A DNA stretch of 37,542 nucleotides from a virus. The notes under the pieces are model-generated. The model was not told the DNA's origin, did no database searches, and saw nothing but the letters and a program-made list of their open reading frames with translations. The stretch covers positions 1-37,542 of IMG/VR virus record IMGVR_UViG_3300044825_001642. One strand, given 5' to 3'. Below, in pieces: positions 5,386 through 33,836 of this stretch. The position numbers and the translations under genes are program-made. Position 1 is the first letter of the stretch; the number at the start of each line of letters is the position of its first letter.

Positions 5386-5396
5386 TGGTGAACTAT

Positions 5397-9724: not shown

Positions 9725-11614
9725 ATGGCAGATTTATTAAAAAAAGACATACGGTATTTAGGTAGAGATTTCAATTCTATAAAATCAAATTTAATTGATT
9801 TTGCAAAAACATACTTTCCAAATACATATCAAGATTTTAATGAAGCGGCACCAGGAATGATGTTCTTGGAAATGGCAGCTTACGTTGGTGATGTTTTATC
9901 GTATTACACCGATGTAACTCTACAAGAATCTTTGATAACCCATGCAACCGAAAGACAAAACATAATAAATATTGCACAATCAATGGGTTATATCCCAAGA
10001 AACAGAATTGCTTCAGTTGCTAAAGTAAATGTATTTCAACTCATACCATCTATTGATGATGGTTTTGGGATTATGATTCCGGATTGGAGATATGCACTTG
10101 CTATAGATGAGGGAATGACTTTATCATCAACCTCAACCACTAATTTATTCAGAACAACAGATTATATTGACTTTAAATTTAGTAGCAGTTTGGATCCAAC
10201 TGAAGTTACACCTTTTGAAATAAATGATGTTACCGGTGAAGTTGAATTTTGGTTATTAAAAAAATCAGTAAACACCGTATCGGGTAATGTCATATCAACT
10301 TCTTTTCCTATTGGAGAACTTGTTCCATATAGAAAACTTTTATTAGAAGAACCTTCTCTTATAGAAGTTTTATATGCAATGGATAGTGACGGAAATAAAT
10401 GGTACAATGTGCCATATTTGGCACAAGATACAATTTTTGAAGCAGTTCCAAACATTCCGAGAAATGATAAATTTTTAAGTCAAGATAGAGGCGGAACACC
10501 ATATCTATTAAAGTTAAGAAGAATACCGAGAAGATTTACAACAAGACAAGTTGCTGATGGATTATTTGAAATGCAATTTGGATCTGGAGTTAGTAATTTT
10601 AATGAAGAATTTTTAATACCAAATCCAGATTTAGTTGGTAGTTCATTGAATAACATAACAAGTGGTTTTTCAAACGAATTAAATCCTGCAAATTTTTTGT
10701 ATACAAAAAGTTATGGTATTGCTCCAAGCAACACAAATATGACAGTATTTTATAGTGTTGGTGGTGGAAGTGGTGATAATGTTGCTAGTGATACTATAAA
10801 CAAAATAAAATCAAAAAGTGTAATAGTTGATGAGACTGGATTGGATTCTGTATTGTATCAGAGAGTTTTAAACAGTTTAGCAGTTACAAATCCAGAACCT
10901 GCTAGTGGCGGAAAAAATGCAGATGATTTAGAAGAAATTAGACAAAATGCTATTGCACAATTTGCATCACAAAATAGAGCAGTTACAAAAGAAGATTACA
11001 TAATAAGAGCATATAGTCTTCCATCAAAATTTGGATCAATATCAAAGGCATATGTTGTAAAAGATACGGAATTATCATACAATATTACAAGTGCAAATAA
11101 TTTTTTACAAAATCAATTTGGTTTAAGTTTTTACATTTTAGGTTACGATAGAAATAACAAACTTACAAGAGTAAATAATGCAACAAAAGAAAATCTAAAA
11201 ACGTATCTAGATCAATATAGAATGCTTACAGATGCCATAACAATTAAAGATGCATACATAATAAACGTAGGTATTGAGTTTGAAATAGTCACAAGACCTA
11301 ATCAAAACGGCAATCAAGTCATTTTAAAATGTATTCAAAAATTAAAAGATTACTTTGATGTAAAAAAATGGCAGATAAATCAACCTATTGTGATAAGTAA
11401 TCTTTACACAGAATTAGACAAAATTGACGGTGTTCAAACGGTAGTTAATATAAAAATAAATAATTTACACGATGAAACACTTGGATATTCAAAATATATT
11501 TACGATATTGATGCTGCAATAAAAGACGGCATTTTATTCCCATCATTGGATCCATCTATGTTTGAGATAAAATATCCAGATAATGATATAGTTGGTAAAT
11601 CAAGGACATACTAA
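9725..11614 (+). CDS. gp6-like baseplate wedge protein (baseplate J family)
   Basis: A 629-residue protein close in size to T4 gp6 (660 residues), the wedge subunit that dimerises to form the inner iris of the baseplate. The N-terminal part has G-M-M-F-L-E-M-A-A-Y-V-G-D-V-L-S-Y-Y at about 40-57, a hallmark of gp6-type proteins. The core at about 380-450 matches baseplate J, with N-P-E-P-A-S-G-G, then an E-E-I-R-Q-N-A helix, Q-N-R-A-V-T-K-E-D-Y-I and F-G-S-I-S-K-A. The C-terminus holds the D-G-V-Q-T-V strand expected of the family. AGGAAA upstream serves as ribosome-binding site. The stop overlaps the next gene by one base (TAATG), implying coupled translation. Confidence 0.93.
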   Translation: MADLLKKDIRYLGRDFNSIKSNLIDFAKTYFPNTYQDFNEAAPGMMFLEMAAYVGDVLSYYTDVTLQESLITHATERQNIINIAQSMGYIPRNRIASVAKVNVFQLIPSIDDGFGIMIPDWRYALAIDEGMTLSSTSTTNLFRTTDYIDFKFSSSLDPTEVTPFEINDVTGEVEFWLLKKSVNTVSGNVISTSFPIGELVPYRKLLLEEPSLIEVLYAMDSDGNKWYNVPYLAQDTIFEAVPNIPRNDKFLSQDRGGTPYLLKLRRIPRRFTTRQVADGLFEMQFGSGVSNFNEEFLIPNPDLVGSSLNNITSGFSNELNPANFLYTKSYGIAPSNTNMTVFYSVGGGSGDNVASDTINKIKSKSVIVDETGLDSVLYQRVLNSLAVTNPEPASGGKNADDLEEIRQNAIAQFASQNRAVTKEDYIIRAYSLPSKFGSISKAYVVKDTELSYNITSANNFLQNQFGLSFYILGYDRNNKLTRVNNATKENLKTYLDQYRMLTDAITIKDAYIINVGIEFEIVTRPNQNGNQVILKCIQKLKDYFDVKKWQINQPIVISNLYTELDKIDGVQTVVNIKINNLHDETLGYSKYIYDIDAAIKDGILFPSLDPSMFEIKYPDNDIVGKSRTY

Positions 11615-12711
11615 TGATATACACAATATACCCGTTCAAAGATGCAACGATATATGAAAAAACAGAATCACTTAATACTGGATTGGATTCTATATTAGAA
11701 TTATCACACGAAAATGTAACAAATTCTACCTCAACATATAACAGTAGAATATTGATGTATTTTAATTTATCTGATTTAGAAGAAAAATTGAACTCATCAG
11801 TAATACCGTCAGATGCATCTTATTATTTATCACTAAAAACAACAGATGTAAAAGAAGTTCCACAAGAGTATACAATTTATGCTTATCCAGTTAGTTCTTC
11901 TTGGATAAATGGAACTGGACAATATGCTTCAAGACCAAATGTAACAGACGGTGTTTCTTGGAAATACAGAACTTCAAAATCAGTTGGCACAGAATGGCAA
12001 CCTACCCAAAGTTTAAATCCAAACGTTACTGGATCATATAATACAAAAGTTGGTGGTGGAACATGGTGGACTTACAATAATTTGGTTTGTTCTGAATCAT
12101 TTTACTATGAAAATTCAGATGTTTACATGGATATTACACCTATGGTAGATTCTTGGTTGAATAAAACTATTGATAATGATGGATTGATATTAAAATTTGA
12201 CAGTACAGTAGAAACATTACCATCGTATTTTTCAAGCATTAAATTTTTTGGTATAGAAAGTAATACGATATATGTACCAAGATTGCAAGTTATTTGGGAT
12301 GATTCACAGTTTGATACAGGTTCACTATCAGAAATTGAAGACGAAAATATAAACTTAAATGTTAAGTTAAAAAAATATTACTCAAAAGAAGAAAAAGCAA
12401 AAATAAGAATTTATGGAAATAAAAAATATCCACAAAAAACATATACAACTCAATCTTATCAACTGATAAATTATTATTTACCAGAAACTTCTTATTATGA
12501 AATTAGAGATGCACATAGTGATGAAATAATATTACCATTTTCAAATATTGGAACAAAAATAAGTTGTGATGATAAAGGAAGTTATTTTAATTTATGGATG
12601 AATATGTTTCAACCGGAAAGATTTTATAGAATACTGATAAAAGTAGAAAAAGAAAATGGAAACAATGTTCAAATTTTTGATAATAATTTCTACTTTAAAG
12701 TTACGAGGTAA
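11614..12711 (+). CDS. DNRLRE-domain-like baseplate or tail protein
   Basis: A 365-residue protein. Residues 1-215 have the look of a DNRLRE beta-sandwich: an opening Y-P-F-K-D-A-T-I-Y, N-S-R-I-L-M-Y-F-N-L-S, a Y-P-V-S-S-S-W-I-N-G-T-G segment, and a closing M-D-I-T-P-M-V-D-S-W followed by G-L-I-L-K-F. Such domains bind carbohydrate or act as structural modules on surface and phage proteins. The rest (about 230-365) is a second beta-rich domain of unknown family. It lies between gp6 and the very large tail protein, where T4-like phages encode further wedge components, so it probably decorates or completes the wedge. It starts at a TAATG overlap with gp6. Confidence 0.65.
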   Translation: MIYTIYPFKDATIYEKTESLNTGLDSILELSHENVTNSTSTYNSRILMYFNLSDLEEKLNSSVIPSDASYYLSLKTTDVKEVPQEYTIYAYPVSSSWINGTGQYASRPNVTDGVSWKYRTSKSVGTEWQPTQSLNPNVTGSYNTKVGGGTWWTYNNLVCSESFYYENSDVYMDITPMVDSWLNKTIDNDGLILKFDSTVETLPSYFSSIKFFGIESNTIYVPRLQVIWDDSQFDTGSLSEIEDENINLNVKLKKYYSKEEKAKIRIYGNKKYPQKTYTTQSYQLINYYLPETSYYEIRDAHSDEIILPFSNIGTKISCDDKGSYFNLWMNMFQPERFYRILIKVEKENGNNVQIFDNNFYFKVTR

Positions 12712-12716
12712 TAACA

Positions 12717-13232
12717 ATGATTGAAAGAGACAAATCTGGAAAAATAATGATTGATTTTTCTAAAGATGAAAATCCAGACTTACCTATAAGAGTTTTGGAC
12801 GAAAGATACACTTATAGTGATTTTAAGTATGCAGTAAACGTAAATTTTAAATCATTACAAAATGCTGTAAATGCTGAAAATTTTATTATGAACAAATATA
12901 ACAATTTGGTAAGAAATTTAGCAGACGGTATAGTAATGGATCCAAACATGGCTTCGGAATTTAAAAATCTAACAACTGCAGAACAATTTTTTACTAATTT
13001 GACAAATTTAATAAACTTAAACGAAGATAGTGTTGTATCTCAAAAAGAAAAAGTTAGACAGTTAGAACAAACAGTTGAGGATGTTAGGTCTGAATCACAA
13101 GAAAAAGAAACATTATTATATTCACAGGCAAATGAAATAATGGAAAAAGATATGTTAATAAAAGAAAAAGATAGAGAAATCGAATTGTTAAAAGAAAGTA
13201 TTAACTCATTATTGACAAACACAAACATCTAA
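12717..13232 (+). CDS. Coiled-coil baseplate-associated protein, unknown
   Basis: A 171-residue protein with a mixed N-terminal half and a C-terminal coiled coil at about 105-165, with heptad-like spacing of V, L, I and M through E-K-V-R-Q-L-E-Q-T-V-E-D-V and I-E-L-L-K-E-S-I-N-S-L-L. GAGG at 12706-12709 precedes the ATG. The last base of its stop codon is the first base of the next ATG (TAATG). Trimeric or dimeric coiled coils of this kind commonly bridge wedge or fibre proteins. No homologue is recognised. Confidence 0.65.
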   Translation: MIERDKSGKIMIDFSKDENPDLPIRVLDERYTYSDFKYAVNVNFKSLQNAVNAENFIMNKYNNLVRNLADGIVMDPNMASEFKNLTTAEQFFTNLTNLINLNEDSVVSQKEKVRQLEQTVEDVRSESQEKETLLYSQANEIMEKDMLIKEKDREIELLKESINSLLTNTNI

Positions 13233-16200
13233 TGAATAATTTTCAATACCAAAATATAGAAGAAATTTTAAACTCATCTATACCAATTCGTGGTTCTAGA
13301 TATGTAATTTCAAAAGATAGACGAGTTATAGTTCCAGTTCTTAATGTAAAGGATGATTCACAGAATAATATTAAAAAAGATTCTTTTGAAATGCATCTAT
13401 TTTATGGGGACGGTGGTTATATTGGATCACTGTATGATATAAAAAATTGGTCCGTTGATGATGAAAATGATCCACAAAATATTAGATTAAACATAAAAGA
13501 AGATTTAAACAATTTTGTAGTTCAACCTGGATCTTACAAAATTGTCTATAACTTTTTGAGAAATTACATAAGTAGTGAGTTTTCTGCAACAAAACTTTTT
13601 ATTGCAGAAATATCTAATGATAGACGAGAATTGGTTTTGGCTTTAACAAATCCAAACGATTTAACAGAAGTAAACAAACTAAAAAACTTTGTATTAGAAT
13701 ACTTAAAACCAAAATCATATTTTCCACCAATAGTATTAAATTTTGGTGAAAATAAAATAGTTGATGTAATAAATATTACATCCGATGGTAGTGAAACTTA
13801 TTTTTATGTAAAACTATTTTATCCTTTACCATTAGATTTAGGTTTAAGATACGAGTGTTGGTTATCTACTCAAATATTCAAACCTTACATTGATAATATA
13901 AAAATACACTCAGATACAGTTCAAACTATAAATACAGAAAATCTATTGCGTGGACCAAACTACAATGTAGATTATTCATATAATACTGTAACTGAAACTG
14001 ATTTTAAATCTTGGAATGACTTATTATCAACAAATTTACAAACATCACAAGAAATATTAAACAAATATGTTTACGGTGATACAAAACCAATACAGATAAA
14101 CATAGATTTTACAAGTTTTAGTAATTTTTGTTATTATTCTTCTGCAGTAGAAAGATTAAACAATTTCATTTACAAAATGAAACTGTTAGAATCATATAAT
14201 ACACAAATAAGTAATTTACAATCTTATGCAGGTTCATATGATGAAATAGAAACTAATATAATAAATGTAAAAAATTTAAAAGATAAACTTATTACTGGTT
14301 TTGATGAATGGGAAAAATGGCTATATTATGAACAATATAACTACGATCCTTTCAATTTAGAAACAAATTTAATTACACCATATCCCAAATACGAAATATC
14401 ATCAAACGAAGATATTAAAACAAAAAATGGTAAATTTAAATTTTGGAAAACAACAGAAACTCCAGGAGAAAATTGGTATAATGCAACTTTAGTTTTAGCA
14501 GAATATAACGATGCAAATAATCCAAATTTATTGAGTAAAGTATTACCAAGTCATATTACGGAAGATGTTAATAATGAACAATTTATATCTTTCGTAAACA
14601 TGATAGGACAACATTTTGATATAATATACACTTACAATGAACATATACTTTACAAACATTTAAGAAAAGAGGATCCAAAATCTGGAATATCACAAGATTT
14701 GATACAAATTGTAACAAAAAATTTAGGTTGGGATTTATCATCTAATATAAGTGATAAAGAATTATGGGAATATGCACTTGGTTTAAATGATAATGTAGAT
14801 GCAAAATACAATGTTCTCGGTGAAAAATACAATAAAACAGAAGAAGAAAGAACAAAAGAAGTATGGAGAAGAATACTAAATAACTTACCATACATATATG
14901 GAACAAAGGGAACCAGTAGAGGAATACGAGCTTTACTTGCCGCATACGGAATACCACAAACACTTTTAACAATAAGAGAATATGGTGGTGCATATAATCC
15001 AAATTCTTACGATTTGGGTAAAAATTTATATGAAAAATCAACTTATTATTTAAATTTTGAAGGTTCACTTGCTGGTAAAAATCAAAAAATTGAAATACCA
15101 TGGGAAAAAGTAAATCATTATGATGAATGGAAATATCCTGATACGGTTACATTTAGATGGAAAATGCAACCTGAAAAAATATACAATTACCAGTCAAATG
15201 AAATACAAACGATTCTTCAAAAAAGTTCATCAAATGGTGTTGATTGGTTCGTAACTGCAAATAAAAATGGAACGGATATTGAAAAAGGTACACTAACGTT
15301 TTATCTTGCAAGTGGTTCAAACTACTTATCAGCTTCGATATACAATGAGTACATATATGAAGATATTCCATTAAACATAATGATAAGACGAAATATATCA
15401 GATGATGATAATTCCGTACAGCAAGTTTATGATTTTATATTAAAAACTGAAAAATATGGAAAAATTGTAGTAGATGAAACAAAAAGTATTGTTGTAAATG
15501 GTACATTAAAACCAGAGTATAATAATTCTTGGAATAGGGATGGAAAACTATACATAGGATCTGGATCAAATTTTGAAACAAATAAAATACTTTCTGGATC
15601 CGTATTTGAAATTAGATATTGGTCAAATCCGTTATCAACTTCTTCATTTGATAATCACGTTTTGGCAGCTAGATCATATAATGGAAATACACCAACATCT
15701 TCATACTACGATTTACAAGGACAATGGAAATTCTGGCAGTATTTTGATCCAAATATAACATCAAGTATTCAAAGTTTACATCCAAATCAAAAAAACAATA
15801 CATTTTATAGTTCATCAAAAGTTGCAAACTTTATTGGTTTTACAACAAGTTCATTTGAAAATTTTACAGAAACCTACTTAATGGAGATTGCAAATACTGG
15901 TGCATCAACAGAATATTCTCAAAAAATAAGAATAGATTCCGCTTCATTGTCAGGTGCTTTAAGTATAAACAATTCTTATGAAAAATCAACGTTGGAAATG
16001 AATGCACCAGATTCAAATAGATTGATGGTTGCATTTTCACCACAACATATAATAAATGAAGACATATATGAGGCAATAGGAAATGTTGATTTAACGGAAT
16101 ACATGGGTGGTTATGATAATTTATCAAAAGATGAATATCCAGACCTTACAAACTTTGCATATGAATATTGGAAAAAATACGAAAATAGAAATGATTTTAA

Positions 16201-17587
16201 TGCTTACATTTCACTAATATCACAATTCGATTTTAGTGTATTTGAACAAATAAGACAGACATTACCTGCAAGAACTAATGAAATTCTCGGTTTAGTCATA
16301 GAGCCAAATGTTTTAGAAAGATCAAAAGTTTCTGCAATAAAAAATATAAGTGGTTACGCTGAAGGATTTGTTTATGAATCAAATGTAATTTCTCCATACC
16401 CGAATGCAATCCCAGCAGAATTGGATAGTAAACATACTGTTTTGTTTTTAGGGTTTGAAGAAGGTGATATGTTAGATGTAAATTTAATAGAATCAGAAAC
16501 AACAATAGAAACATCAGTTTTTACAGATACGGATGAGAAGATAAAACTTGGAGACATGGATGTAGATCTACATACAAAAGGACAGGTTAATAATTTAGAA
16601 AAAGTAGTAATAAATACACCAATAGGTAATAGTCCAAAATTAGAATTTAGGACATACAACACATTACTAAAAACAAAGTTAATAGAAGATGCTATAAGAA
16701 TGGAAACAGTTTCTTATACAATGAAACTCGATTCAAAGGCATATAAAAATGTTATTGGCGAAACGATACAAGTAACAAATAATCCAAAATTAGATTTAAT
16801 ATTTAATACATCTGGATCACTTGCATTTATTAAAAAATCAACATATAATCAAATTTCAACATACGAAAATCATAATTATTATAGCACAATAGTTCCAAAA
16901 TATAAAACGAATTACATAAAAAATGTTGGATATTACAAATTTTTTGGATCAAATTACATAAATCCAAAATCATTTGAAACTGCAAAACAAGGTAGAGAAT
17001 TTTTTGGATGTAATGATTATCCATATCCGTATAAAAATTCAATAAAACCAGAATTGACACTTTATACTGCAAATTCAAATTTATTAAATTATGCACTTAT
17101 TCGTGAAAATTATGAGTTTACAAAACATAATTTAAATGATCAATTATTTTTAACATATGAAAATGTTAAAAATGGTTCTTCTACGGTAGAAATAAATGTA
17201 TTTCCAAAGAGTAAATTTTGGAAAACTGAAATTAGAGGTGGATTTTTTGATAACATAATTAAGTCGGAAAATCAATATGGAATGATAGATACTGCACCGA
17301 GAATAATAAAATTAAATACATCATTGGAAATAGCCGGTTCAGGTGGAAACTACAAGGCAATGAAAAAGTTATTTACGCCGCAGTATTTACAAGAAAGTGT
17401 TATAGAAGGTACAAAAAGGTATTTAAATTACCCAACATCTCAAGATTATATTAGAGGATTTCCTTGGGTTCTTTGGTGGAAAGGTGATAATGATACGATA
17501 CCAAATTTGGGTCCAGATTTTGGTTTTCAATCAACGTTTTTTGTAACAAATTTACAAACAACAATACCTGCTACAATAAATCAGTAA
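13232..17587 (+). CDS. Very large tail-protein-I/gp7-like baseplate protein with a concanavalin-like insertion
   Basis: At 1451 residues this is the largest protein in the window. Around residues 530-600 it contains W-R-R-I-L-N-N-L-P-Y-I-Y-G-T-K-G-T and R-G-I-R-A-L-L-A-A-Y-G-I-P, the signature region of phage tail protein I and T4-like gp7 wedge proteins. Residues about 605-840 look like a LamG/concanavalin A-like jelly roll: Y-Y-L-N-F-E-G-S-L, a Y-I-G-S-G-S strand, then F-E-I-R-Y-W-S-N-P-L. Flanking regions (1-500 and 850-1451) are beta-rich with no motif I can name. Its place after gp25-gp6 and its size match T4 gp7 (1032 residues) extended by surface domains. It probably forms the outer wedge and may carry a glycan-binding face. 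Translation is coupled to the previous gene (TAATG). Confidence 0.7.
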   Translation: MNNFQYQNIEEILNSSIPIRGSRYVISKDRRVIVPVLNVKDDSQNNIKKDSFEMHLFYGDGGYIGSLYDIKNWSVDDENDPQNIRLNIKEDLNNFVVQPGSYKIVYNFLRNYISSEFSATKLFIAEISNDRRELVLALTNPNDLTEVNKLKNFVLEYLKPKSYFPPIVLNFGENKIVDVINITSDGSETYFYVKLFYPLPLDLGLRYECWLSTQIFKPYIDNIKIHSDTVQTINTENLLRGPNYNVDYSYNTVTETDFKSWNDLLSTNLQTSQEILNKYVYGDTKPIQINIDFTSFSNFCYYSSAVERLNNFIYKMKLLESYNTQISNLQSYAGSYDEIETNIINVKNLKDKLITGFDEWEKWLYYEQYNYDPFNLETNLITPYPKYEISSNEDIKTKNGKFKFWKTTETPGENWYNATLVLAEYNDANNPNLLSKVLPSHITEDVNNEQFISFVNMIGQHFDIIYTYNEHILYKHLRKEDPKSGISQDLIQIVTKNLGWDLSSNISDKELWEYALGLNDNVDAKYNVLGEKYNKTEEERTKEVWRRILNNLPYIYGTKGTSRGIRALLAAYGIPQTLLTIREYGGAYNPNSYDLGKNLYEKSTYYLNFEGSLAGKNQKIEIPWEKVNHYDEWKYPDTVTFRWKMQPEKIYNYQSNEIQTILQKSSSNGVDWFVTANKNGTDIEKGTLTFYLASGSNYLSASIYNEYIYEDIPLNIMIRRNISDDDNSVQQVYDFILKTEKYGKIVVDETKSIVVNGTLKPEYNNSWNRDGKLYIGSGSNFETNKILSGSVFEIRYWSNPLSTSSFDNHVLAARSYNGNTPTSSYYDLQGQWKFWQYFDPNITSSIQSLHPNQKNNTFYSSSKVANFIGFTTSSFENFTETYLMEIANTGASTEYSQKIRIDSASLSGALSINNSYEKSTLEMNAPDSNRLMVAFSPQHIINEDIYEAIGNVDLTEYMGGYDNLSKDEYPDLTNFAYEYWKKYENRNDFNAYISLISQFDFSVFEQIRQTLPARTNEILGLVIEPNVLERSKVSAIKNISGYAEGFVYESNVISPYPNAIPAELDSKHTVLFLGFEEGDMLDVNLIESETTIETSVFTDTDEKIKLGDMDVDLHTKGQVNNLEKVVINTPIGNSPKLEFRTYNTLLKTKLIEDAIRMETVSYTMKLDSKAYKNVIGETIQVTNNPKLDLIFNTSGSLAFIKKSTYNQISTYENHNYYSTIVPKYKTNYIKNVGYYKFFGSNYINPKSFETAKQGREFFGCNDYPYPYKNSIKPELTLYTANSNLLNYALIRENYEFTKHNLNDQLFLTYENVKNGSSTVEINVFPKSKFWKTEIRGGFFDNIIKSENQYGMIDTAPRIIKLNTSLEIAGSGGNYKAMKKLFTPQYLQESVIEGTKRYLNYPTSQDYIRGFPWVLWWKGDNDTIPNLGPDFGFQSTFFVTNLQTTIPATINQ

Positions 17588-17671: not shown

Positions 17672-18331
17672 ATGGGTTATTTAGATAATACCACAATAAC
17701 GGTAGATGCTATTCTTACTAAAAAAGGTAGAGAATTATTAGCAAAAGGTAGAAATCAATTTAACATAACACAATTTGCTTTGGCAGATGATGAAATTGAT
17801 TATGATTTATGGAATCCTTCACATCCAGGAGGAAGTGATTTTTATGGAGCTGTTATTGAAAATATGCCAATAACCGAAGCTGTTCCAGATGAAACACAGT
17901 CGTTGAAATATAAACTGATAACACTTCCACCAGGAACAACACAGATACCTTATATAGATCCTACAAGTCCAGGAATCGCTTCAGGTGTTGTTAAATTAGA
18001 AACAAATAAAAGAACACAGGCGTTGGGTGTTTTGGTAAAACCAAAAACAATACAATTAAGTACAACTGGAACAATTACTGATCCAAATAGTTCATATTCT
18101 TATCATATTTTAGATAATACATATGCAACATTTTCAACGGAAACATCAATGATGGCCGGTAGATCAGTTAGTGTATCAGATGTTCCGGCATCACAAGGAG
18201 TTACGATTGTTGCAACTGGAACAGAATTACCAATAGGAACAACTGCAACAACAAAACTTATTATTAGCGGAAACCAAACAGGTGCCCGTATAGTTATTCC
18301 AATACAAGTTACACAAGCTGTAACAACGTAA
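17672..18331 (+). CDS. Probable abundant virion structural protein
   Basis: A 219-residue protein starting at ATG 17672 behind the strongest ribosome-binding site in the window. The N-terminus (Y-L-D-N-T-T-I-T-V-D-A-I-L-T-K-K-G-R-E-L) and the block F-A-L-A-D-D-E-I-D-Y-D-L-W-N-P match, from memory, a virion structural protein family found in marine T4-like phages. The last 75 residues look like an immunoglobulin-like beta domain (V-T-I-V-A-T-G-T-E-L-P-I-G-T-T...I-P-I-Q-V-T-Q). No enzyme motif is present. It opens the block of five paralogous fibre-like genes, so it may be the adaptor that attaches them to the virion. The exact role is inferred. Confidence 0.7.
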   Translation: MGYLDNTTITVDAILTKKGRELLAKGRNQFNITQFALADDEIDYDLWNPSHPGGSDFYGAVIENMPITEAVPDETQSLKYKLITLPPGTTQIPYIDPTSPGIASGVVKLETNKRTQALGVLVKPKTIQLSTTGTITDPNSSYSYHILDNTYATFSTETSMMAGRSVSVSDVPASQGVTIVATGTELPIGTTATTKLIISGNQTGARIVIPIQVTQAVTT

Positions 18332-18366
18332 TGATTTTTAGATAAAATAATCTTGTGAGATAATTT

Positions 18367-19497
18367 ATGTCAAATATTTTTAAAATGGTTGCACAAAACG
18401 AATCGGCGGCATTAACTGGAACCACCGCAAGTGAAATATTTACTTCACTTTATACAAAAGGTTTGTGGTCTCCAACTATTGCTAGTTTAAAAAGTTTTTA
18501 TACAAGTTCTGTGCAAAATGAGGCATCAAAAGAATATTATTTACAAATATGGATGTCATCTTCATTAAACACAAAAGAAAATGAAATGTTTTCTATTGCT
18601 TACGGCAATATAAACGGTTCTGGATCAAAATATGTAACAACCGCTTATGATGTTGTTGGTCAAGCAAGCGATACGCCTTCAAGAGCAATTTACTCACAAT
18701 ACAAGTTGATGTGTTTAGATGAAACAGAGACAAAATTTACACTAGAAAATGGTGATGAAGTAAATCACTTTTATGCTATAAACATAAATCGAAATAGATT
18801 TGGTGATAAGTTGGATCCTGGTAATTTTGAAATAAATATTGCAGAATTAAATGGTAGATCTTTTGCTAATAATTTATACACTGGTAGTAATGTTGAAGTT
18901 TCTTCTTCAAATAAGATAATATCTCTGATAGATGATTCATTAGATTCAATAGATCAATACGAATATTCTGAAAAACCCGCAAAAGTTCGTAATTTAGTTA
19001 GTGGATCACTTGCAACTGGAATATATGATGCTTCAAATCCACATTATTACGGAAAAGTTTATCCAGACAACGGTACTATAATAATTTCTGCAGAAAAATT
19101 AAACGATAATGTAACATTTAATACTGTAAGTGGAAGTAATATTGATGGTCAGAATAGTTACAAATTATTTACAGCAATGAGTGGATCAGCTCAATCGGTT
19201 AATTTAGGATTTGTTGCTCGTGCAGTTCAAATAAAACACCAACAATCTATTTTTATACGTGTTAATAGTGATGAAATGAATTATTCTAACAATCCTACTT
19301 TTGTTAATTCTGATGCAACAAAAGGTAGAATTGGAAAACCATATTTTGATAGTTTTATGTATAATCCTCACGTTTATGTTACAACAATAGGTCTTTACAA
19401 TGAAAACAAGGATTTACTTGCTGTTGCTAAATTGAGCAAACCATTACAAAAATCATTTAATAGTGAATTATCAATAACTGTAAAACTAGAGTATTAA
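18367..19497 (+). CDS. Fibre/decoration paralogue 1 (module-only form)
   Basis: A 376-residue protein made almost entirely of a module repeated in the next four genes. Recognisable blocks in order: F-S-I-A-Y-G at about 77-82, a R-A-I-Y-S-Q-Y-K segment, F-Y-A-I-N-I-N-R-N-R-F and K-L-D-P-G-N-F-E-I, I-S-L-I-D-D-S, Y-G-K-V-Y-P-D-N-G-T-I-I-I-S-A-E-K-L, F-I-R-V-N, Y-S-N-N-P-T-F, and finally Y-V-T-T-I-G-L-Y-N-E-N-K-D-L-L-A-V-A-K-L. It is beta-rich and Ser/Asn/Gly-rich, typical of extracellular phage appendages, with no signal peptide or catalytic motif. It is the shortest pair with the next gene, and part of the C-terminal coding DNA is identical to it. I infer a virion surface protein; its precise position is unknown. 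Confidence 0.75.
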   Translation: MSNIFKMVAQNESAALTGTTASEIFTSLYTKGLWSPTIASLKSFYTSSVQNEASKEYYLQIWMSSSLNTKENEMFSIAYGNINGSGSKYVTTAYDVVGQASDTPSRAIYSQYKLMCLDETETKFTLENGDEVNHFYAININRNRFGDKLDPGNFEINIAELNGRSFANNLYTGSNVEVSSSNKIISLIDDSLDSIDQYEYSEKPAKVRNLVSGSLATGIYDASNPHYYGKVYPDNGTIIISAEKLNDNVTFNTVSGSNIDGQNSYKLFTAMSGSAQSVNLGFVARAVQIKHQQSIFIRVNSDEMNYSNNPTFVNSDATKGRIGKPYFDSFMYNPHVYVTTIGLYNENKDLLAVAKLSKPLQKSFNSELSITVKLEY

Positions 19498-19500
19498 ACC

Positions 19501-20622
19501 ATGGCTTATGTTTTTAAAAAATTTGAAACAGGATCTATAGCATACGATAGACGAGATTTTGTTTCAAGACCGTTGTGGAGTGGAAATAATGTATCTCTAA
19601 CAAAGATATACTCCAGTTCTTTACAATCAGATATACAAAAATTATACTATGTAGATGTTTACAATACAACCGGCTCTAGAATAGAAAAACAGTTTAGTAT
19701 AGCATATTGTGATTATGTAAATAGTGGATCATCTAATGGATCAACAATAGGAAATAATGTTTCCGAATCTAAAGCATTATATTCTCAATATAAACAACTT
19801 TTATTGGAAAGTGAAACTAATCTTTTTGAATTTGTTTCAAAGTTTGATGGTTTGGATGAAAATGGAAACACCTTAAACACATACACGGAAACATCGGAAC
19901 ATATCTATGTTCTTAATGTAAACAGAAACAGATTCAAAGAAAAATTGGCACCTGGATCTTGGCAATTATCATTACATTCTGTTGATGCTGAAACTGGTGA
20001 AGTTTCTGGAAGTAAAATAACAACACTTGTAGATGAAACTATAAGTGAATTATATCTTTTAGGTAGTTCTCTTTCAAGAACAGGACCTGGAGGAAGTTTT
20101 TATTACGTTTATAGTGGAAGTTTAACAGACGGTCTTTATACAGGCGACGGTTCAGCAACACCTTATGGTATAGCGTATCCAGATGTTGGTATTATTGTAT
20201 TAAATGGAAATGCACTAGATAATGTAGCAAAAATAAATACTAAAAGAAATCCTGCAACTGGTAGTAGTTCATTTAACTCTAGTAGACTTTTTAACGCTAT
20301 AAGTGGTGCAATGGAAGTTTCAAATAATAATGCATTTTTTGGTAGAACATTAGAAACTATAAATTCAACAATATACTTTGCAAGAGTTGGAAATGGAGAA
20401 TTTAATTTTAGTAATAATGTTTCTTACTATCAAACAGGAAGCGAACAGTATATTAAACCACTAATGCTTGCAACTGGTGATGATTACAGAAATGTAACAT
20501 ATATTACAACTGTTGGTTTGTATAACGATGAAAGAGATTTACTTGCTGTTGCTAAATTGTCAAAACCCGTTGGTAAAACATCGGATTCTGAAATGATTAT
20601 CAAAATTAAATTAGATTACTAA
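19501..20622 (+). CDS. Fibre/decoration paralogue 2 (module-only form)
   Basis: A 373-residue protein collinear with its upstream neighbour over its whole length: F-S-I-A-Y-C, K-A-L-Y-S-Q-Y-K, I-Y-V-L-N-V-N-R-N-R-F, L-A-P-G-S-W, Y-G-I-A-Y-P-D-V-G-I-I-V-L-N-G, F-A-R-V-G, and Y-I-T-T-V-G-L-Y-N-D-E-R-D-L-L-A-V-A-K-L. A stretch of 24 bases at 20536-20559 is identical to 19411-19434, pointing to a fairly recent duplication or gene conversion. The gene begins three bases after the previous stop with no Shine-Dalgarno site, so it is probably translated by reinitiation. No enzyme motif. Probable virion appendage subunit, perhaps forming a hetero-oligomer with its neighbour. Confidence 0.75.
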   Translation: MAYVFKKFETGSIAYDRRDFVSRPLWSGNNVSLTKIYSSSLQSDIQKLYYVDVYNTTGSRIEKQFSIAYCDYVNSGSSNGSTIGNNVSESKALYSQYKQLLLESETNLFEFVSKFDGLDENGNTLNTYTETSEHIYVLNVNRNRFKEKLAPGSWQLSLHSVDAETGEVSGSKITTLVDETISELYLLGSSLSRTGPGGSFYYVYSGSLTDGLYTGDGSATPYGIAYPDVGIIVLNGNALDNVAKINTKRNPATGSSSFNSSRLFNAISGAMEVSNNNAFFGRTLETINSTIYFARVGNGEFNFSNNVSYYQTGSEQYIKPLMLATGDDYRNVTYITTVGLYNDERDLLAVAKLSKPVGKTSDSEMIIKIKLDY

Positions 20623-20634
20623 TAGAAGAAAAAT

Positions 20635-23600
20635 ATGGCAAATTACGGACAAAATACACAAGTTAGAATTGATTCGATTGGTTTAACACCTGCAAATATT
20701 GAAACTATAAAAAGTCTTCCAGTAGGTGGATATACTTTAGATGATTTATCAAATTTTCTTCCAAAAAATCTGACACAATTAAGATCTTCATTGTCTTCTG
20801 CAAAAGAAGATGTTGATGCAGTTGCTGAAGTATTCATAAATGATGAAACAAACAGAATATCACAAGGAGCTGCTGCTGGATCAATAACATCAAGACCTAT
20901 AATAAATTTATTGCAAGCAATTAGTATAGATATACAAAAATCTATAAATAATATAGATACAAAATTAAACACCCCACCCGCAGATGTAATAGTTTTGCCA
21001 GAAGGTAAACCAATAATAACTGTAAGAGGTGTAAATTTTGATGAAGTTCAATTAGGTAATGCATCGGTATTACCTATAATAATTGAAAATACTGGTAATG
21101 ATCAACTAATAATAACTGGATATAGTGGATTTGGTGCATCATCATCTTATGCAGTTTTATCACCGTATAATTGGCCTGAAATATCTAATGATAGTCCTAT
21201 AATACTTCAACCGGGTGAAACAAAAAGTTTAGAAGTTTCTTTTACACCAAATGCAATAGTTACTTACACATCAACTATTAAATTTACAAGTAATGCAACA
21301 GAGGGTAGTAATTCTGCTTCAATACTTGGAAAAGGAAAGGCAATTCCAGATCCAGGAGTTGAAAGTGTTTTAGGTAAGAAAAAAACTGGATCAAAAAGAA
21401 TATTAACTATTAAAAATGTAAGAGAAGTATCTGTAACTTCAAAAAATAATCCAGATATAAAATCACCATATTTTGATCAACAAGCAACAAAACATAGTGC
21501 AAAACTTGTTGTTGATATTTGGCAATGTTATACACCATTTGGTCAAGAAAACCAAATTCAAAAATTGTTGTTGGAAAATGTTGTAATTGCAGATGGTATT
21601 GGATCATTTTGGTATGAGAGATGTGATGATTTTCTTGGAGGATTAAGACCATCATATCAATACTACTACGATACAGAACAAATAAACGATGTATTAACTT
21701 GGAAAGCATTAACAAGACAAGATAGACTTCAAGATGCAACCAATTTATTAAATCCAAGTAATGCTTTATTAGATAATACAAATGTAAATGAATTATTCAA
21801 ATTTAGATCATTTATACAAAAAATAAAAGAAGAATTAGATTCAGACGATTCGTACTGGGGAAAATTTGATCAAAAAAATCCAAATAAAACTTTATGTGAA
21901 CCTGGAAATGTTAGAGATGAGATTTATATTGCAAATGTTGTAAGAACCGAGTTTCAATCAAAAAGTGATATAAAAATATATGGTGGATTTAAAGAAAACG
22001 TACAAACAAGAAGAAACGGTATTACAGACAATAATCTTCCAGATTTATTATCATCAGTAGACGGTAATACAATACAAGAATTAGATTCAGGATTTATTTC
22101 CAAAACATCATATGGTAGATTAAGTTGTTTACAACCAAAAACAGGTTGTTACATAAAATCTGAAAGAGAATTAAACGATGTAAAAACATATGGCGATGCA
22201 ATAATAAAATTGATTACTAAATCATCTGTTCCTGAAAAAATACCAAATCATGCTTGTTATCGTGGTTACAAGGCAACATATATTCGTAGTTTTAATTGGG
22301 AAAGACGATGGGAACTGCTTTTAGACTGTTTAGGAACAGAGTACACAGAATATGAATGGAGACCTGATGAAAACCTTTTCAATGAAAGAGGTACGATATA
22401 CGATGTTTGGGAAGATGTTGAATTTGCTGGAACAGAAATTGGATTTACAGAAAATTGTATTCCGATAGAAAGACCTAGAGTTCAAGAACCTTATGTAGAT
22501 ATGTCTGATAATTTGGGTTGTTATGAATTACAAACAACAAAAATTTATATGAAATATCCAGATTACAATTCTCCTGGAGATAAAGACTATATTAGAGGTG
22601 CAGAAGTATTATCCATTCAAGATTATAGTGGTCTTGGTCCTGGAATTAAATTAAATAGAAAAGTAAAAAGAGCAGATTGTGATCAATCCCCCATTAGAAT
22701 ATTTCATCCATTAAAAATGGGTTCTGATATAATAACAGGAAGAGATAATTTGATTACAAAAGGTTTGTTCAATGGTAATCAATCTCCTGATTCTCATTTT
22801 ACAAGTTCGTATCAAAATGAGAAATCTAAAAAATATGTTTACAATATAGTTGATAATACTGTATTAAAAAATAACAAACCAATTTCTTATTATTCCGTAG
22901 GTTACGGTAACAAATATGGTTCTGGATCTGTTTATAGTGGATATGAAACATCCGATTCAACAACAAAGGCAATATACAGTCAAAACCGTTTATTGGCATT
23001 AGAATCATCGGAAACAGAATTTACTACTTATACAAGTGGATCATTGACAAGTGGTAGAAAAGATATTTATACCATAAACTTTAATAGAGATTCATTATCA
23101 GATAGATTGGATCCTGGTAATTTTGAAATTGCATTATCAGATATTTCAACTCCATCAAAAATAATGACCTTTATAGATAATTCTAGAGATATACTTGAAG
23201 ATAAATTTACAAATGATCATGTATTTTCATATTTTGATATTGTAAGTGGAAGTTTAGAATATGGAATACACGATTCTGGAACAGGAAGTTTGGAATCAAA
23301 TTCATATATTACAACTTATGGTAAAGTATATCCTGCTCTTGGTTTAATCGTTTTTGATGCAGAAAAATTAGATGAAAACCTTTCGTTTGAAACAAATTTG
23401 TCTGAAAATGTTGATACAAATAATGCATTAAAATTATTTAATTCAATAAAAAATGCACATGATAATCAGTATGAAATGAAAGCAAGAGGATCAAGTAATA
23501 AAAAATCAAATCATTATTTCATACGAGTTAGTGCTGGAACTTCAAATTATTCTAATAATCCAACAATGGTTAATGATACATTGAATAATAATAATGTAAT

Positions 23601-23757
23601 CAAACATGAATTTTTTAAGTATAATCCAGTTACATACATAACAACAGTTGGTCTTTACAATGACGCGGAAGAATTATTGGCTGTTGCAAAATTAAGTAAA
23701 CCCGTAAAAAAGACACCAGAAATAGACATATTGATAAAAATAAGATTGAATTGGTAA
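20635..23757 (+). CDS. Fibre/decoration paralogue 3 with ASH/Hydin-like domain
   Basis: A 1040-residue protein. Residues about 1-125 are a helical N-terminal region. Residues about 128-235 resemble an ASH/Hydin (choice-of-anchor-D) immunoglobulin-like domain: V-N-F-D-E-V-Q-L-G-N, I-I-I-E-N-T-G-N-D-Q-L-I-I-T-G, L-Q-P-G-E-T-K-S-L-E-V-S-F-T-P and S-I-L-G-K-G. A long central part (about 240-700) has Trp- and Cys-containing beta regions with no recognised family. Residues about 710-1040 are the shared module, including T-K-A-I-Y-S-Q-N-R, R-L-D-P-G-N-F-E-I, Y-G-K-V-Y-P-A-L-G-L-I-V-F-D-A-E-K-L and Y-I-T-T-V-G-L-Y-N-D-A-E-E-L-L-A-V-A-K-L. The C-terminal placement suggests the module is a common attachment or oligomerisation unit and the N-terminal parts vary in function. 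Confidence 0.75.
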   Translation: MANYGQNTQVRIDSIGLTPANIETIKSLPVGGYTLDDLSNFLPKNLTQLRSSLSSAKEDVDAVAEVFINDETNRISQGAAAGSITSRPIINLLQAISIDIQKSINNIDTKLNTPPADVIVLPEGKPIITVRGVNFDEVQLGNASVLPIIIENTGNDQLIITGYSGFGASSSYAVLSPYNWPEISNDSPIILQPGETKSLEVSFTPNAIVTYTSTIKFTSNATEGSNSASILGKGKAIPDPGVESVLGKKKTGSKRILTIKNVREVSVTSKNNPDIKSPYFDQQATKHSAKLVVDIWQCYTPFGQENQIQKLLLENVVIADGIGSFWYERCDDFLGGLRPSYQYYYDTEQINDVLTWKALTRQDRLQDATNLLNPSNALLDNTNVNELFKFRSFIQKIKEELDSDDSYWGKFDQKNPNKTLCEPGNVRDEIYIANVVRTEFQSKSDIKIYGGFKENVQTRRNGITDNNLPDLLSSVDGNTIQELDSGFISKTSYGRLSCLQPKTGCYIKSERELNDVKTYGDAIIKLITKSSVPEKIPNHACYRGYKATYIRSFNWERRWELLLDCLGTEYTEYEWRPDENLFNERGTIYDVWEDVEFAGTEIGFTENCIPIERPRVQEPYVDMSDNLGCYELQTTKIYMKYPDYNSPGDKDYIRGAEVLSIQDYSGLGPGIKLNRKVKRADCDQSPIRIFHPLKMGSDIITGRDNLITKGLFNGNQSPDSHFTSSYQNEKSKKYVYNIVDNTVLKNNKPISYYSVGYGNKYGSGSVYSGYETSDSTTKAIYSQNRLLALESSETEFTTYTSGSLTSGRKDIYTINFNRDSLSDRLDPGNFEIALSDISTPSKIMTFIDNSRDILEDKFTNDHVFSYFDIVSGSLEYGIHDSGTGSLESNSYITTYGKVYPALGLIVFDAEKLDENLSFETNLSENVDTNNALKLFNSIKNAHDNQYEMKARGSSNKKSNHYFIRVSAGTSNYSNNPTMVNDTLNNNNVIKHEFFKYNPVTYITTVGLYNDAEELLAVAKLSKPVKKTPEIDILIKIRLNW

Positions 23758-23758
23758 T

Positions 23759-26386
23759 ATGGGAACAGAATTTCATGTTATAGAAGTTGGATTTATAGGA
23801 TCATTTTTGGAAGAAAGAGCCGATAATGATGGTGATAATCTACGTAAAAATGTTTCTTTGAATGTTCCAAATAATAACATATATGTAATAAATCCTGTTA
23901 CTGGATTACTTGAAAGTAAAATTGAAAACGCAAATACTGATAATCCACAATTTGTTGAATTTAGTTCCGATAAACCTTCATCGCCCACAACAAATTTGAT
24001 AATAAAAAATATCGGAAAAACTATAAAAGTTATTAACAAAACTAATACAGAAACGTGTGTAAACGAAAAAATATCAGGAAGTAATTACATATACGATTCT
24101 GGATCAATTCCGCCTGGTGCAGAAGATTGTTTGAAGTCAATATATTTCACTTCAAATTCAAATATACATTGGCCTACAATGGAACAAACTTATGCAGTTT
24201 TGGATGATTTGAGTAAAAAAATTCCATATGATGAGGGGTTTTCAAAAAAATATTACAAAATACACCATTTAAGTGATGAACATTTAAGAATGGTAGAAAG
24301 TAATACAAAAATTTCTTACGATTTTCTTAAAAAACTACAAACTTTATTTTTATTCGATTCTGAATATCCTGATAATATGGATAACAGTAAAATAAAAATA
24401 TCTTCAGAATGGGATGGATTTTCTGTTGATAATAATGACTCAAACAATTTAGTGTATTCTGATTATTTTAAAACTGGAAGTGCAGAATATGCAAATTTTG
24501 TATTTCTTGTATCGGATAGAACATTAAATGATTTACACGAATATTTTTTGTCTGGATCTGTAGAAAAAACAAATTATTTTGATGCAACAAAGACATATAA
24601 TCCAGAAATTTTTATTGATAAAAAATATGAAAAAAAAGAAAATTATGGAAATTTAATATCATTAAAACCTAAAAATATAAGTTTAGAAAATCCTTCAAAT
24701 CAAGTAGTTGCAACAGAGGAACAAATTTTAGACATTTTATACAAAAAAGAGTTGTATAGAATGGATCCATCAGTTACCGATTTAGATTTAGTATACGATG
24801 TGGTTGCAACAAATATATTCATGGATATTATAGAAGATAACTCTTTATTCACAATAAATAAGGTGGACAATATTCCTGTTGATGTAGAATTGATTGCAGA
24901 GACATCATCAATACAAGAAAATATAAATATAATAAATCCTTTGATAACAAAATACGATGAATTGATTCCAACAAATAAGATGATAATAAACAATAAAGTA
25001 TTTTCCTTAATAAAGGAATATGTTAATTTTCAGATAAACAATAGATTTCCACCAAGACAAAATATAGAAATATCAAAGGATAAATTTGGAACTTTATTTA
25101 AAACTAAACCATTTTTTATAGCAACAGAAGATGGATTGTCATTTTTTCCTGATAACATGGCAAGAACTTTTACATTAACTGTTGATCCAAACACATCTTT
25201 TATTACAGTAACTACTTCTAGTATTCAAAATCCGCCTGAAACTTTATTACAAAACGTTGATCAATTTTTAAATGATGTTGTTGAAATAGTTCCTGCAACA
25301 AATTTAACATTAAAATCAATAAATGTTGCAACAGATTATGCAAAATCAAAAACGGTTTTTGTAACTAAACCAATTTTTTCAAATGGTTTAGATAGAAATA
25401 GTAGTTTTTATACATCTTCTGCACCAAGTAGTCATTTAAATTATTATATTCCAGTTTATACTGATAATTCTAACAATCCATTATCAAAACATATATTTGA
25501 TATTGCTTATGCACATATTTCTGGATCTGGATCATCCTATCTAAATAATGACACAGAACATTTGCCTTCAAAAACTTTATACAAAAAATATTTGGCAGAA
25601 TGTTTTGGAAATCAAGAGTATATGGTTTTTAAAAATAATCCAAAAACTGATCATTTTTACATAATAGAATTTAATAGAGATTTGTTCCGAGATAGATTGG
25701 ATAGTCAAAATATGCAAATTACTTTTTCGCCAATATCTTCAAGTTTAAATCAAACTTTTAATACGGGTAGTAATTTTTCTTCCAATCAAAATTCAAATAT
25801 AATATACAAATTGATAGATGATAGTAAGACATTGACTGCATATTCTGCATCAATGTTTGGTACAGAAGAATACTACAATTTAGTAGAAGGAACACAACAA
25901 GATGGATTAAAATACGAAGACGATGAATCAGAATCTTGGGGTATGGTATTTCCAAGAAGGGGTCTTATATTATTAGATGCTCAAATTTTAGACAAGTATT
26001 GTAATTTTAATACAGTAACAGGATCATTTAATGGTGATAATATACAAAAATTATTCGTATCTTTAAGTTCTTCTTGTGCACCAAATTTATCAAGAACAAA
26101 TCACGAATATTGGTATGTAAGGTCTGCAGAAGAATATTCAGATGAAAATTATTTTTGTAGAGTTAATAAAAATGAATTTAATTACACGAATAATTATACA
26201 TACATAAGCGGCTCTACTAGAAAAATTTTCTATGATAGATTAAACAATTCTTCAAAGGTGTACATATCAACCATTGGTTTGTATGATGATAACAGAAATT
26301 TAATAGCTGTTGGTAAGTTGAAAAAACCGTTATTAAAAGATAGTAGTGAAGAATATATTTTTAACGTTAGAATAAAATCCAACTAA
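23759..26386 (+). CDS. Fibre/decoration paralogue 4
   Basis: An 875-residue protein starting one base after the previous stop. The N-terminal 540 residues are a mix of beta and helical segments without a recognised domain. The shared module occupies about 540-875: F-D-I-A-Y-A-H-I-S-G-S-G-S, F-Y-I-I-E-F-N-R-D-L-F, Y-K-L-I-D-D-S, W-G-M-V-F-P-R-R-G-L-I-L-L-D-A, F-C-R-V-N-K-N-E-F-N-Y and Y-I-S-T-I-G-L-Y-D-D-N-R-N-L-I-A-V-G-K-L. The module is more diverged here than in paralogues 1-3. The gene ends in a TAATG overlap with paralogue 5. Likely a tail fibre or peripheral baseplate protein, with the unique N-terminal half giving a specific contact. Confidence 0.7.
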   Translation: MGTEFHVIEVGFIGSFLEERADNDGDNLRKNVSLNVPNNNIYVINPVTGLLESKIENANTDNPQFVEFSSDKPSSPTTNLIIKNIGKTIKVINKTNTETCVNEKISGSNYIYDSGSIPPGAEDCLKSIYFTSNSNIHWPTMEQTYAVLDDLSKKIPYDEGFSKKYYKIHHLSDEHLRMVESNTKISYDFLKKLQTLFLFDSEYPDNMDNSKIKISSEWDGFSVDNNDSNNLVYSDYFKTGSAEYANFVFLVSDRTLNDLHEYFLSGSVEKTNYFDATKTYNPEIFIDKKYEKKENYGNLISLKPKNISLENPSNQVVATEEQILDILYKKELYRMDPSVTDLDLVYDVVATNIFMDIIEDNSLFTINKVDNIPVDVELIAETSSIQENINIINPLITKYDELIPTNKMIINNKVFSLIKEYVNFQINNRFPPRQNIEISKDKFGTLFKTKPFFIATEDGLSFFPDNMARTFTLTVDPNTSFITVTTSSIQNPPETLLQNVDQFLNDVVEIVPATNLTLKSINVATDYAKSKTVFVTKPIFSNGLDRNSSFYTSSAPSSHLNYYIPVYTDNSNNPLSKHIFDIAYAHISGSGSSYLNNDTEHLPSKTLYKKYLAECFGNQEYMVFKNNPKTDHFYIIEFNRDLFRDRLDSQNMQITFSPISSSLNQTFNTGSNFSSNQNSNIIYKLIDDSKTLTAYSASMFGTEEYYNLVEGTQQDGLKYEDDESESWGMVFPRRGLILLDAQILDKYCNFNTVTGSFNGDNIQKLFVSLSSSCAPNLSRTNHEYWYVRSAEEYSDENYFCRVNKNEFNYTNNYTYISGSTRKIFYDRLNNSSKVYISTIGLYDDNRNLIAVGKLKKPLLKDSSEEYIFNVRIKSN

Positions 26387-28290
26387 TGAATACAAAAGGA
26401 ATAAATATAATATATGATCCAATAAGGATAGGTGATTACACCGTTAGATCCGTATCAACCGGTGGTAATCAACAAAATAGATCATCAACTCCAGTTAGAG
26501 GTTTTAATTCTAACAAAACTTGGATATTTACATCTGATGATGTTAAAAACTTTGCAAACGAAGAAACTGAAATAGTGGATATAGTTTGGTCTACTGCAAA
26601 TTTTTCATTTTTTAATGCTATAAAGGCATGGATTCAGCAGTTGGGAACAACTTCAATTATTGTTACTGAAGGATCCAATATATCAAATTTGGATGCAGAA
26701 AAAATAAACGTTTTTAGATATTTCTATCCTGAAAATGACAAATATTTTGGAAATATATTAAATGTTTCATCATCTTTGTATCAAAACACATATCAACACC
26801 AACCATTAGATCCTAAAATTTTATGGTATTATTTGGATCACAATTATTACAGAGATTATAGAACGGACAAAAATCCTGCTGATGAAACAAATTTTGATAC
26901 AAACAACTATCTTTCACCTACCGGATCTATAATAATTTTTCCAAGAAAAATGACCGGTGAGATAATAAAAAAAGAATCATTAAGACTAAAAAATATAAAT
27001 CCAGTTGATGATGTGTATGAATATGTTGTTGTTGATGACGGTATAGGAAATATAGTAGATACAACAATAGATGACACAAAAATAATAGACCACAGATATA
27101 ATATGTTGTATGTTGGTTTCAATGAAAAATATAGAGAAACAAATTTTGTAAATACAAAACTTGATTATGTTTTAGATTGGTCTAATAATTTGAATGAAGT
27201 AAAGGTAATAAATAAAAGAAAAATATCATATACCGATGGCATACCAACAACTGATACACAAGAAAAATCAGGAGTATGTGCAAATTTTAGCGGTTCATAC
27301 CTAGAAGTAACCGATAATGAAATGTTTAATTTTACGAATAATTTAGATTTTGCATTTAGTTTTTGGATTAACATACCACCAACACAATCAATAGAAACAT
27401 TTGAATATAATCCAATTTTTGATAAAAAAACGATAAAACCAATAGATGTTTATTCAAGTACAACAGGAGTATATTCAGTAGATAGCAACATGGAAAGTAA
27501 ACAATATCCATTTGATATTGTATTAACTAACAGAACAAATGCAGAACCTTACAAAATACAATTCAAACAAAGTGATAGCGTATTAACATCAACAGTTTCT
27601 TCAAATGAATTATCAACTAACGAATGGCATCATATTGTTTGTCAAAAAACTGGAAGTGTTTATGAAGTTTGGGTAGATGGAAATTTGAACGATTCAACTA
27701 ACGTTAATATAATAAGTAATGTTCAAAATAAAAATAAATTTTACATAGCAGGAAACGGAACAACTCAAAATAATTTTTCTGGATCACTTGATGAAATAAG
27801 AATTTTTAACAAGGCATTAAATGAAAATGAAATACAAAATTTGGGCGATAATAGTTTAAAATACGGATATGCTTATCAAAGAAAAGAAATTGGAAACGTT
27901 TATTATGAAACCGGAGTAGTAATAGTTTCTGATCCAAGACCTAAATATAAAAACGCATTTTTAGGAAGAAATGGAATATTTGACTATCAAAATTTTGAGT
28001 TTGGTTTTGAAGGGGGATTTAAAAGTATAAATACAATATATGAACATGAAATTGTTTGTAGTATTGAAAAACATAAATTTAACTTTACACAAAATCCGTC
28101 ATCCTTGACAAAATATACAAATAGAATAAATACAAAACCATATGTAACAAATTCAGAATTTACACCATACATAACCACAATAGGTCTGTACAATGATAAT
28201 CACGATTTAGTTGCAGTTGCTAAATTAGCAACACCACTTAAAAAAAGAAAAGATATAGATGTAAACATAATAATAAGGTTTGATATGTAA
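26386..28290 (+). CDS. Fibre/decoration paralogue 5 with an inserted LamG domain
   Basis: A 634-residue, most diverged member of the set. The N-terminal part (1-290) includes a mixed region around W-S-T-A-N-F-S-F-F-N-A-I-K-A-W. Residues about 295-485 are a clear LamG/concanavalin-type domain: C-A-N-F-S-G-S-Y-L-E-V, L-D-F-A-F-S-F-W-I, E-W-H-H-I-V-C-Q-K, Y-E-V-W-V-D-G-N-L, F-Y-I-A-G-N-G and S-L-D-E-I-R-I-F-N-K-A-L. After it the C-terminal half of the shared module resumes with I-G-N-V-Y-Y-E-T-G-V-V-I-V-S-D and ends with Y-I-T-T-I-G-L-Y-N-D-N-H-D-L-V-A-V-A-K-L. LamG domains usually bind sugars, so this is the best candidate here for a receptor-contacting protein, though that is inference. Confidence 0.75.
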   Translation: MNTKGINIIYDPIRIGDYTVRSVSTGGNQQNRSSTPVRGFNSNKTWIFTSDDVKNFANEETEIVDIVWSTANFSFFNAIKAWIQQLGTTSIIVTEGSNISNLDAEKINVFRYFYPENDKYFGNILNVSSSLYQNTYQHQPLDPKILWYYLDHNYYRDYRTDKNPADETNFDTNNYLSPTGSIIIFPRKMTGEIIKKESLRLKNINPVDDVYEYVVVDDGIGNIVDTTIDDTKIIDHRYNMLYVGFNEKYRETNFVNTKLDYVLDWSNNLNEVKVINKRKISYTDGIPTTDTQEKSGVCANFSGSYLEVTDNEMFNFTNNLDFAFSFWINIPPTQSIETFEYNPIFDKKTIKPIDVYSSTTGVYSVDSNMESKQYPFDIVLTNRTNAEPYKIQFKQSDSVLTSTVSSNELSTNEWHHIVCQKTGSVYEVWVDGNLNDSTNVNIISNVQNKNKFYIAGNGTTQNNFSGSLDEIRIFNKALNENEIQNLGDNSLKYGYAYQRKEIGNVYYETGVVIVSDPRPKYKNAFLGRNGIFDYQNFEFGFEGGFKSINTIYEHEIVCSIEKHKFNFTQNPSSLTKYTNRINTKPYVTNSEFTPYITTIGLYNDNHDLVAVAKLATPLKKRKDIDVNIIIRFDM

Positions 28291-33802: not shown

Positions 33803-33836
33803 TACAATATAAAATAATAAAATAAAGGTTTTGTTT

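Follow-up and report, generated by a model that had tools for sequence, protein, structure and literature searches.

Paralogous modules in a five-gene array as probable peripheral baseplate subunits of a Far-T4-type myovirus

In bacteriophage T4, gp10, gp11, and gp12 are thought to have arisen from one primordial fold through specialization and the gain or loss of subdomains; they lie at the baseplate periphery, where they interact, and gp9, gp10, gp11, and gp12 each form a homotrimer before contacting each other (PMC3004832). In phage CBA120, four tailspikes of one phage (TSP1-4) are joined in one branched complex on the baseplate via their N-terminal domains (PMC8825819). The Far-T4 group, of which Rhodothermus phage RM378 is the cultured reference (PMC4360716; PMC7198788), is reported to be common in freshwater and seawater, and no T4 core genes involved in virus-host interaction were detected in its members (PMC4360716). 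Here, we analyzed five adjoining genes in a 37,542-nucleotide stretch of viral DNA (hereafter the window) and infer that they probably encode paralogous peripheral baseplate or adsorption subunits of a Far-T4-type myovirus, a reading that extends to their presence in the virion, their location, and their oligomeric state.

The five open reading frames form one tight plus-strand operon, with gaps of at most 12 bp and a single 1-bp overlap. The genes and their parts, numbered by position in the window, are as follows.

18367..19497, + strand: gene 1 (P1), module-only, 376 aa; clades with P1 of other phages
19501..20622, + strand: gene 2 (P2), module-only, 373 aa; its nearest tree neighbor is the single copy of two-gene phages
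20635..23757, + strand: gene 3 (P3), 1040 aa, variable N-terminal head and C-terminal module
21031..21312, + strand: ASH/HYDIN-type Ig-like domain of gene 3, residues ~133-226 (Pfam PF22073/PF15780/PF22544)
22702..23754, + strand: module of gene 3, residues ~690-1040 of 1040, from BLASTP and the module profile
23759..26386, + strand: gene 4 (P4), 875 aa, variable N-terminal head of ~515 aa and C-terminal module
25295..26380, + strand: module of gene 4, residues ~516-873 of 875
26386..28290, + strand: gene 5 (terminal gene), 634 aa, read as a divergent module split by a LamG domain
27295..27837, + strand: LamG_3 domain of gene 5, residues 304-484 (PF13385, E 2.9e-16)
27892..28287, + strand: second half of the gene 5 module, carrying the GLYND..AVAKL end

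The C-terminal motif GLY[ND][DE]..(L/I/V)AV[AG]KL was detected in 5/5 genes, in agreement with an earlier note on this DNA, which had described five adjoining genes with a common module and a GLY...AV[AG]KL ending. Genes 1-4 aligned over their full module length in pairwise BLASTP (26.6-38% identity, E 9e-58 to 5e-23), and the alignments span 359-384 columns, so the similarity of these four genes reaches well beyond the last 20 residues. The module comprises ~345 aa with 46 invariant columns in genes 1-4; a profile built from these genes recovered one module in each of them and only the last ~90 residues in gene 5. The two genes that had been described as module-only, genes 1 and 2, are indeed so. 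The extra domains proposed for three genes were confirmed as N-terminal heads in genes 3 and 4, but the LamG domain of gene 5 sits inside a divergent module and not in front of it. The Ig-like domain in the gene 3 head was matched at Pfam E 4e-7 to 2e-4, with scores at or just under the curated cut-offs, and a Pfam search with the gene 4 head (~515 aa) returned no match.

BLASTP aligned gene 5 with genes 1-4 in its C-terminal part only (E 1e-12 to 3e-7). The terminal genes of two related loci (L094 and L096) encode 316-322 aa without a LamG domain and read unbroken through DDGEGNL..LSGS..VGNIIY..G; in the window, as in most relatives, an insert of at least ~190 residues that matches LamG_3 separates DDGxGN from VGNVxY. 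When compared with the module profile, the LamG-free terminal genes reached an HHalign probability of 99.6 (E 8e-25), with the second half and the middle of the module matched. After the C-terminal motif was cut off, the remaining half still aligned colinearly and scored 26.4, whereas 60 column shuffles averaged 13.1 and reached 20.3 at most; the N-terminal half alone gave a low HHalign probability (7.9-15.7%). The LamG-free L096 terminal protein gave a moderate AlphaFold2 model (pLDDT 66.8), and Foldseek returned ten significant BFVD proteins (E 7e-7 to 1e-13), all of them within the eleven matched by the gene 1 model. Because the LamG-free homologues can be aligned with most of the module and have a similar fold, gene 5 is very likely a fifth, divergent module carrying a LamG insert. 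The insertion site is strongly supported and full-module homology moderately so: in the interrupted full-length module, the C-terminal half matched strongly and the N-terminal half at modest scores.

The AlphaFold2 model of gene 1 (pLDDT 88.8, pTM 0.81) had no Foldseek match in the PDB at E <= 0.001, its 50 best hits included no T4 baseplate chain, and its eleven significant viral matches are proteins without known function, for which the only descriptive names are LamG/lectin. Searches with 87 module sequences found no recurrent family in Pfam or PHROGs, the best single matches being scattered. Because the module combines no significant PDB match with viral matches of no known function and no Pfam or PHROGs model, it is an uncharacterized family. 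A PDB sequence search gave no match to solved baseplate proteins, and matches of the module profile to known tail-fibre and tail-collar families did not rise above noise in Pfam and PHROGs. PDB sequence matches to 'caspase-3' (E 0.2 and above) were taken as chance. A match to an S-PM2 tail fibre (E 0.002) was dismissed, as it scored 9.4 bits and covered a region without the conserved end of the module, and a link to P2-type tail-collar fibres via the GLY..D..L.AV motif was unsupported by any Pfam match.

By tblastn, the module occurred in only seven phage records: Microcystis phage Mel-JY01, Flavobacterium phage immuto (four records), RM378, and an uncultured 484-kb phage. The carriers of module homologues include the uncultured phage LR756508, and relatives are encoded in at least 516 of the 599 IMG/VR contig stretches that match module peptide patterns; T4, P2, P-SSM2, and HTVC008M gave no module match. 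Searches of whole records yielded five matches in Mel-JY01, two in immuto, and one in RM378, none of them outside the module block. In Mel-JY01, the five-gene array of the window recurs with its gene order unchanged. Phage immuto has one module and a LamG-free terminal gene, directly followed by genes annotated as tail fibre and tail spike, and RM378 has a single module gene adjoining a homologue of the 219-aa protein that precedes the array in the window. Located 3' of this single module gene, RM378 also has a second gene that partly resembles the 219-aa protein (L012, 13620-14339). All deposited homologues in the annotated phages examined are named 'hypothetical protein'.

The order gp25, gp6, 365-aa gene, (171-aa gene), ~1200-1500-aa gene, 219-aa gene, module gene(s), terminal gene, endonuclease I, primase recurs in dozens of phages, as read in lineages whose contigs cover the region and with occasional insertions. 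In the window, the genes preceding the array are the following.

9225..9713, + strand: gp25-type baseplate wedge subunit (phrog_261, E 6e-15; phrog_43, E 6e-12)
9725..11614, + strand: gp6-type baseplate wedge subunit (phrog_219, E 6e-24; phrog_6, E 1e-19; HHalign to T4 gp6, probability 97.1)
11614..12711, + strand: 365-aa conserved neighbor (CBM96 match in 2/18 homologues)
13232..17587, + strand: 1451-aa giant conserved neighbor (83 loci)
17672..18331, + strand: 219-aa protein directly upstream of the array (91 loci, including RM378)

The 1451-aa protein did not match T4 gp7; judged from its position only, it is a possible wedge scaffold. T4-type gp23 and gp20 are present in Mel-JY01, immuto, RM378, LR756508, and several two-gene contigs, and neither gene was found in the window, a 37.5-kb fragment. 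The predicted virion location of the array products derives from the synteny with the gp25 and gp6 wedge genes and from these relatives with T4-type gp23 and gp20. We found no paper that reports module products in virions.

Several other features of the region were recorded. Directly 3' of the array lies a phage endonuclease I (28291-28704; PF05367, E 6e-43), which is present in ~60 related loci. In L077 and L032, no fibre gene was evident from the translations in the gap between the terminal gene and the primase; beside the array of L032, a three-gene phage, an HNH-type homing-endonuclease-like ORF (16657-17442) and a GIY-YIG-like ORF (18139-18600) were likewise judged from translations. Just upstream of gp25, the window encodes two large adjacent proteins that resemble each other and contain endolysin-type domains (5331-7061 and 7073-8749), which are probably tail-associated cell-wall hydrolases. 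Positions 284-970 match ClpP-like head maturation proteases (phrog_94, E 8e-34), whereas one RM378 gene is annotated as a gp21-type prohead protease. One 1059-aa ORF (30282-33461) matches both SbcC-like and SbcD-like PHROG families. A 927-aa ORF (33831-36614) matches a glycosyltransferase at its N-terminus and a methyltransferase at its C-terminus, and adjoins a second methyltransferase-like gene that runs off the window end. We detected no tRNA and no Rfam RNA in the window.

The number of module genes between the 219-aa gene and the terminal gene was one in 56 loci, two in 6, four in 19, and seven in 1, counts that carry a bias because the loci were picked by similarity to the modules of the window; versions with two, three, five, and eight genes thus coexist. 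The longest array seen (L043, 9776-20079; the same array occurs in L044) has seven consecutive modules ahead of the terminal gene, and several of these have diverged strongly. Trees were computed from 88 modules and then, more carefully, from 51 modules after long branches had been left out. In both, each of the four positions (P1-P4) of the four-copy phages formed one clade (bootstrap 100, SH-aLRT 99-100, 200/200 bootstrap trees), and the single copies of two-gene phages lay nearest P2 in the free tree. A single expansion within the four-copy lineage was not rejected (AU p 0.21). Separate duplications were observed in L024, where the event is more recent, and in L027/L029. No gene conversion or exchange between positions was visible in the module trees. 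With one clade per position, the four copies existed before the phage of the window and Mel-JY01 split. The duplications are, on this phylogenetic reading, ancient and the copies not interchangeable, because each position forms its own fully supported clade in the four-copy phages. The proposal of serial duplication with domain acquisition in the earlier note is supported by the homology of the modules, the variable heads, and the one clade per position; 'serial' applies only with a qualification, as the four-copy array is ancient and inherited by position, with separate later duplications in L024 and L027/L029.

The strict positional orthology and the lack of gene conversion, together with the tight five-gene operon and its gaps of at most 12 bp, would also suit five modules that co-assemble as one obligate hetero-oligomer (e.g., a mixed trimer or ring with one copy each) and not as homo-oligomers at separate sites, for which the branched hetero-complex of CBA120 TSP1-4 offers a precedent (PMC8825819). 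However, two-gene phages manage with one module and the terminal gene, and T4 gp9, gp10, gp11, and gp12 are each homotrimeric (PMC3004832); we consider an obligate hetero-oligomer unlikely.

In distant orthologues, the P3 and P4 modules retain 36-53% identity to the window copy, versus 23-32% for the N-terminal heads in most comparisons. The length of the P4 head ranges from 65 to 641 aa across phages, and some phages have ASH/HYDIN-like Ig or PKD domains in the P3 head. A constant C-terminal module with variable heads would fit an anchored subunit with an exposed part; the head variation might instead reflect weak constraint and not host contact. The variable heads could otherwise belong to a host-range cassette of alternative tail fibres or receptor-binding proteins, with one receptor each and the module as anchor. 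Such a cassette would be in keeping with the Ig-like and LamG domains, the separate expansions in other lineages, and the fibre and spike genes that follow the immuto pair. Yet all complete five-gene loci seen keep two headless copies, the positions showed no recombination or exchange with each other, and no depolymerase or beta-helix domain was detected, which makes this account rather improbable. A place in the virion away from the baseplate, such as neck or whisker fibres or head decoration, is very unlikely: the T4 whisker gene wac does sit just after gp12, but the array lies downstream of gp25 and gp6 in the phages whose contigs cover the region, and the module profile has no similarity to wac.

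Peripheral baseplate subunits remain the favored assignment, because a constant module with variable heads occurs together with a position beside the wedge genes. In the mechanism we propose, the C-terminal module of ~345 residues would be the constant part through which each protein docks at the baseplate rim, attached either to the wedge or to a neighboring module. The two module-only copies may be structural rim subunits or adaptors, and in copies 3 and 4 the large variable N-terminal heads would extend outward and form fibre-like or surface-facing parts. The LamG (concanavalin-like) domain of the terminal copy would be displayed from a module loop, with a surface glycan as its possible ligand. 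The array would have grown from an ancestral pair, one module gene and a LamG-type terminal gene, to four modules and a terminal gene before the five-gene phages diverged, after which each copy would have specialized and been inherited in place. The array is a conserved candidate for part of the host-recognition machinery of Far-T4 phages, with Mel-JY01 and immuto as cultured carriers. More tentatively, duplication of a single module whose fold is so far absent from the PDB may have given Far-T4 phages a baseplate rim that evolved separately from T4 gp9-gp12, in which each paralogue would be fixed in place and non-exchangeable and the complexity of the rim would depend on the number of paralogues (2 to 8).

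Among described systems, the tailspikes of CBA120 and other Ackermannviridae are beta-helix depolymerases, two of them with N-terminal gp10-like XD domains, whereas the common part of the module array is C-terminal; Pfam and PHROG searches of genes 1-5 and of the P3 heads found neither beta-helix depolymerase nor gp10-like XD domains. The array resembles T4 gp9-gp12 in being consecutive genes downstream of gp6, and T4 gp7-gp12 occupy its equivalent place. By HHalign, the module profile matched none of the T4 proteins compared (gp53, the gp5-gp15 range, and wac), the best probability being 0.3% (gp9) against 97.1% for the gp6 control. Since the sequence and fold features tested for membership were not found, the best reading is that the array would work like T4 gp9-gp12 and not as a member of that family. 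In contrast to T4 gp9-gp12, the module array retains paralogy that can be recognized from sequence, its common part lies at the C-terminus, and phages differ in copy number. T4 gp10-gp11-gp12 provide the closest parallel, and the array is an unusually clear example of how duplication enlarges a viral machine, in which, unlike in T4, similarity still orders many of the events.
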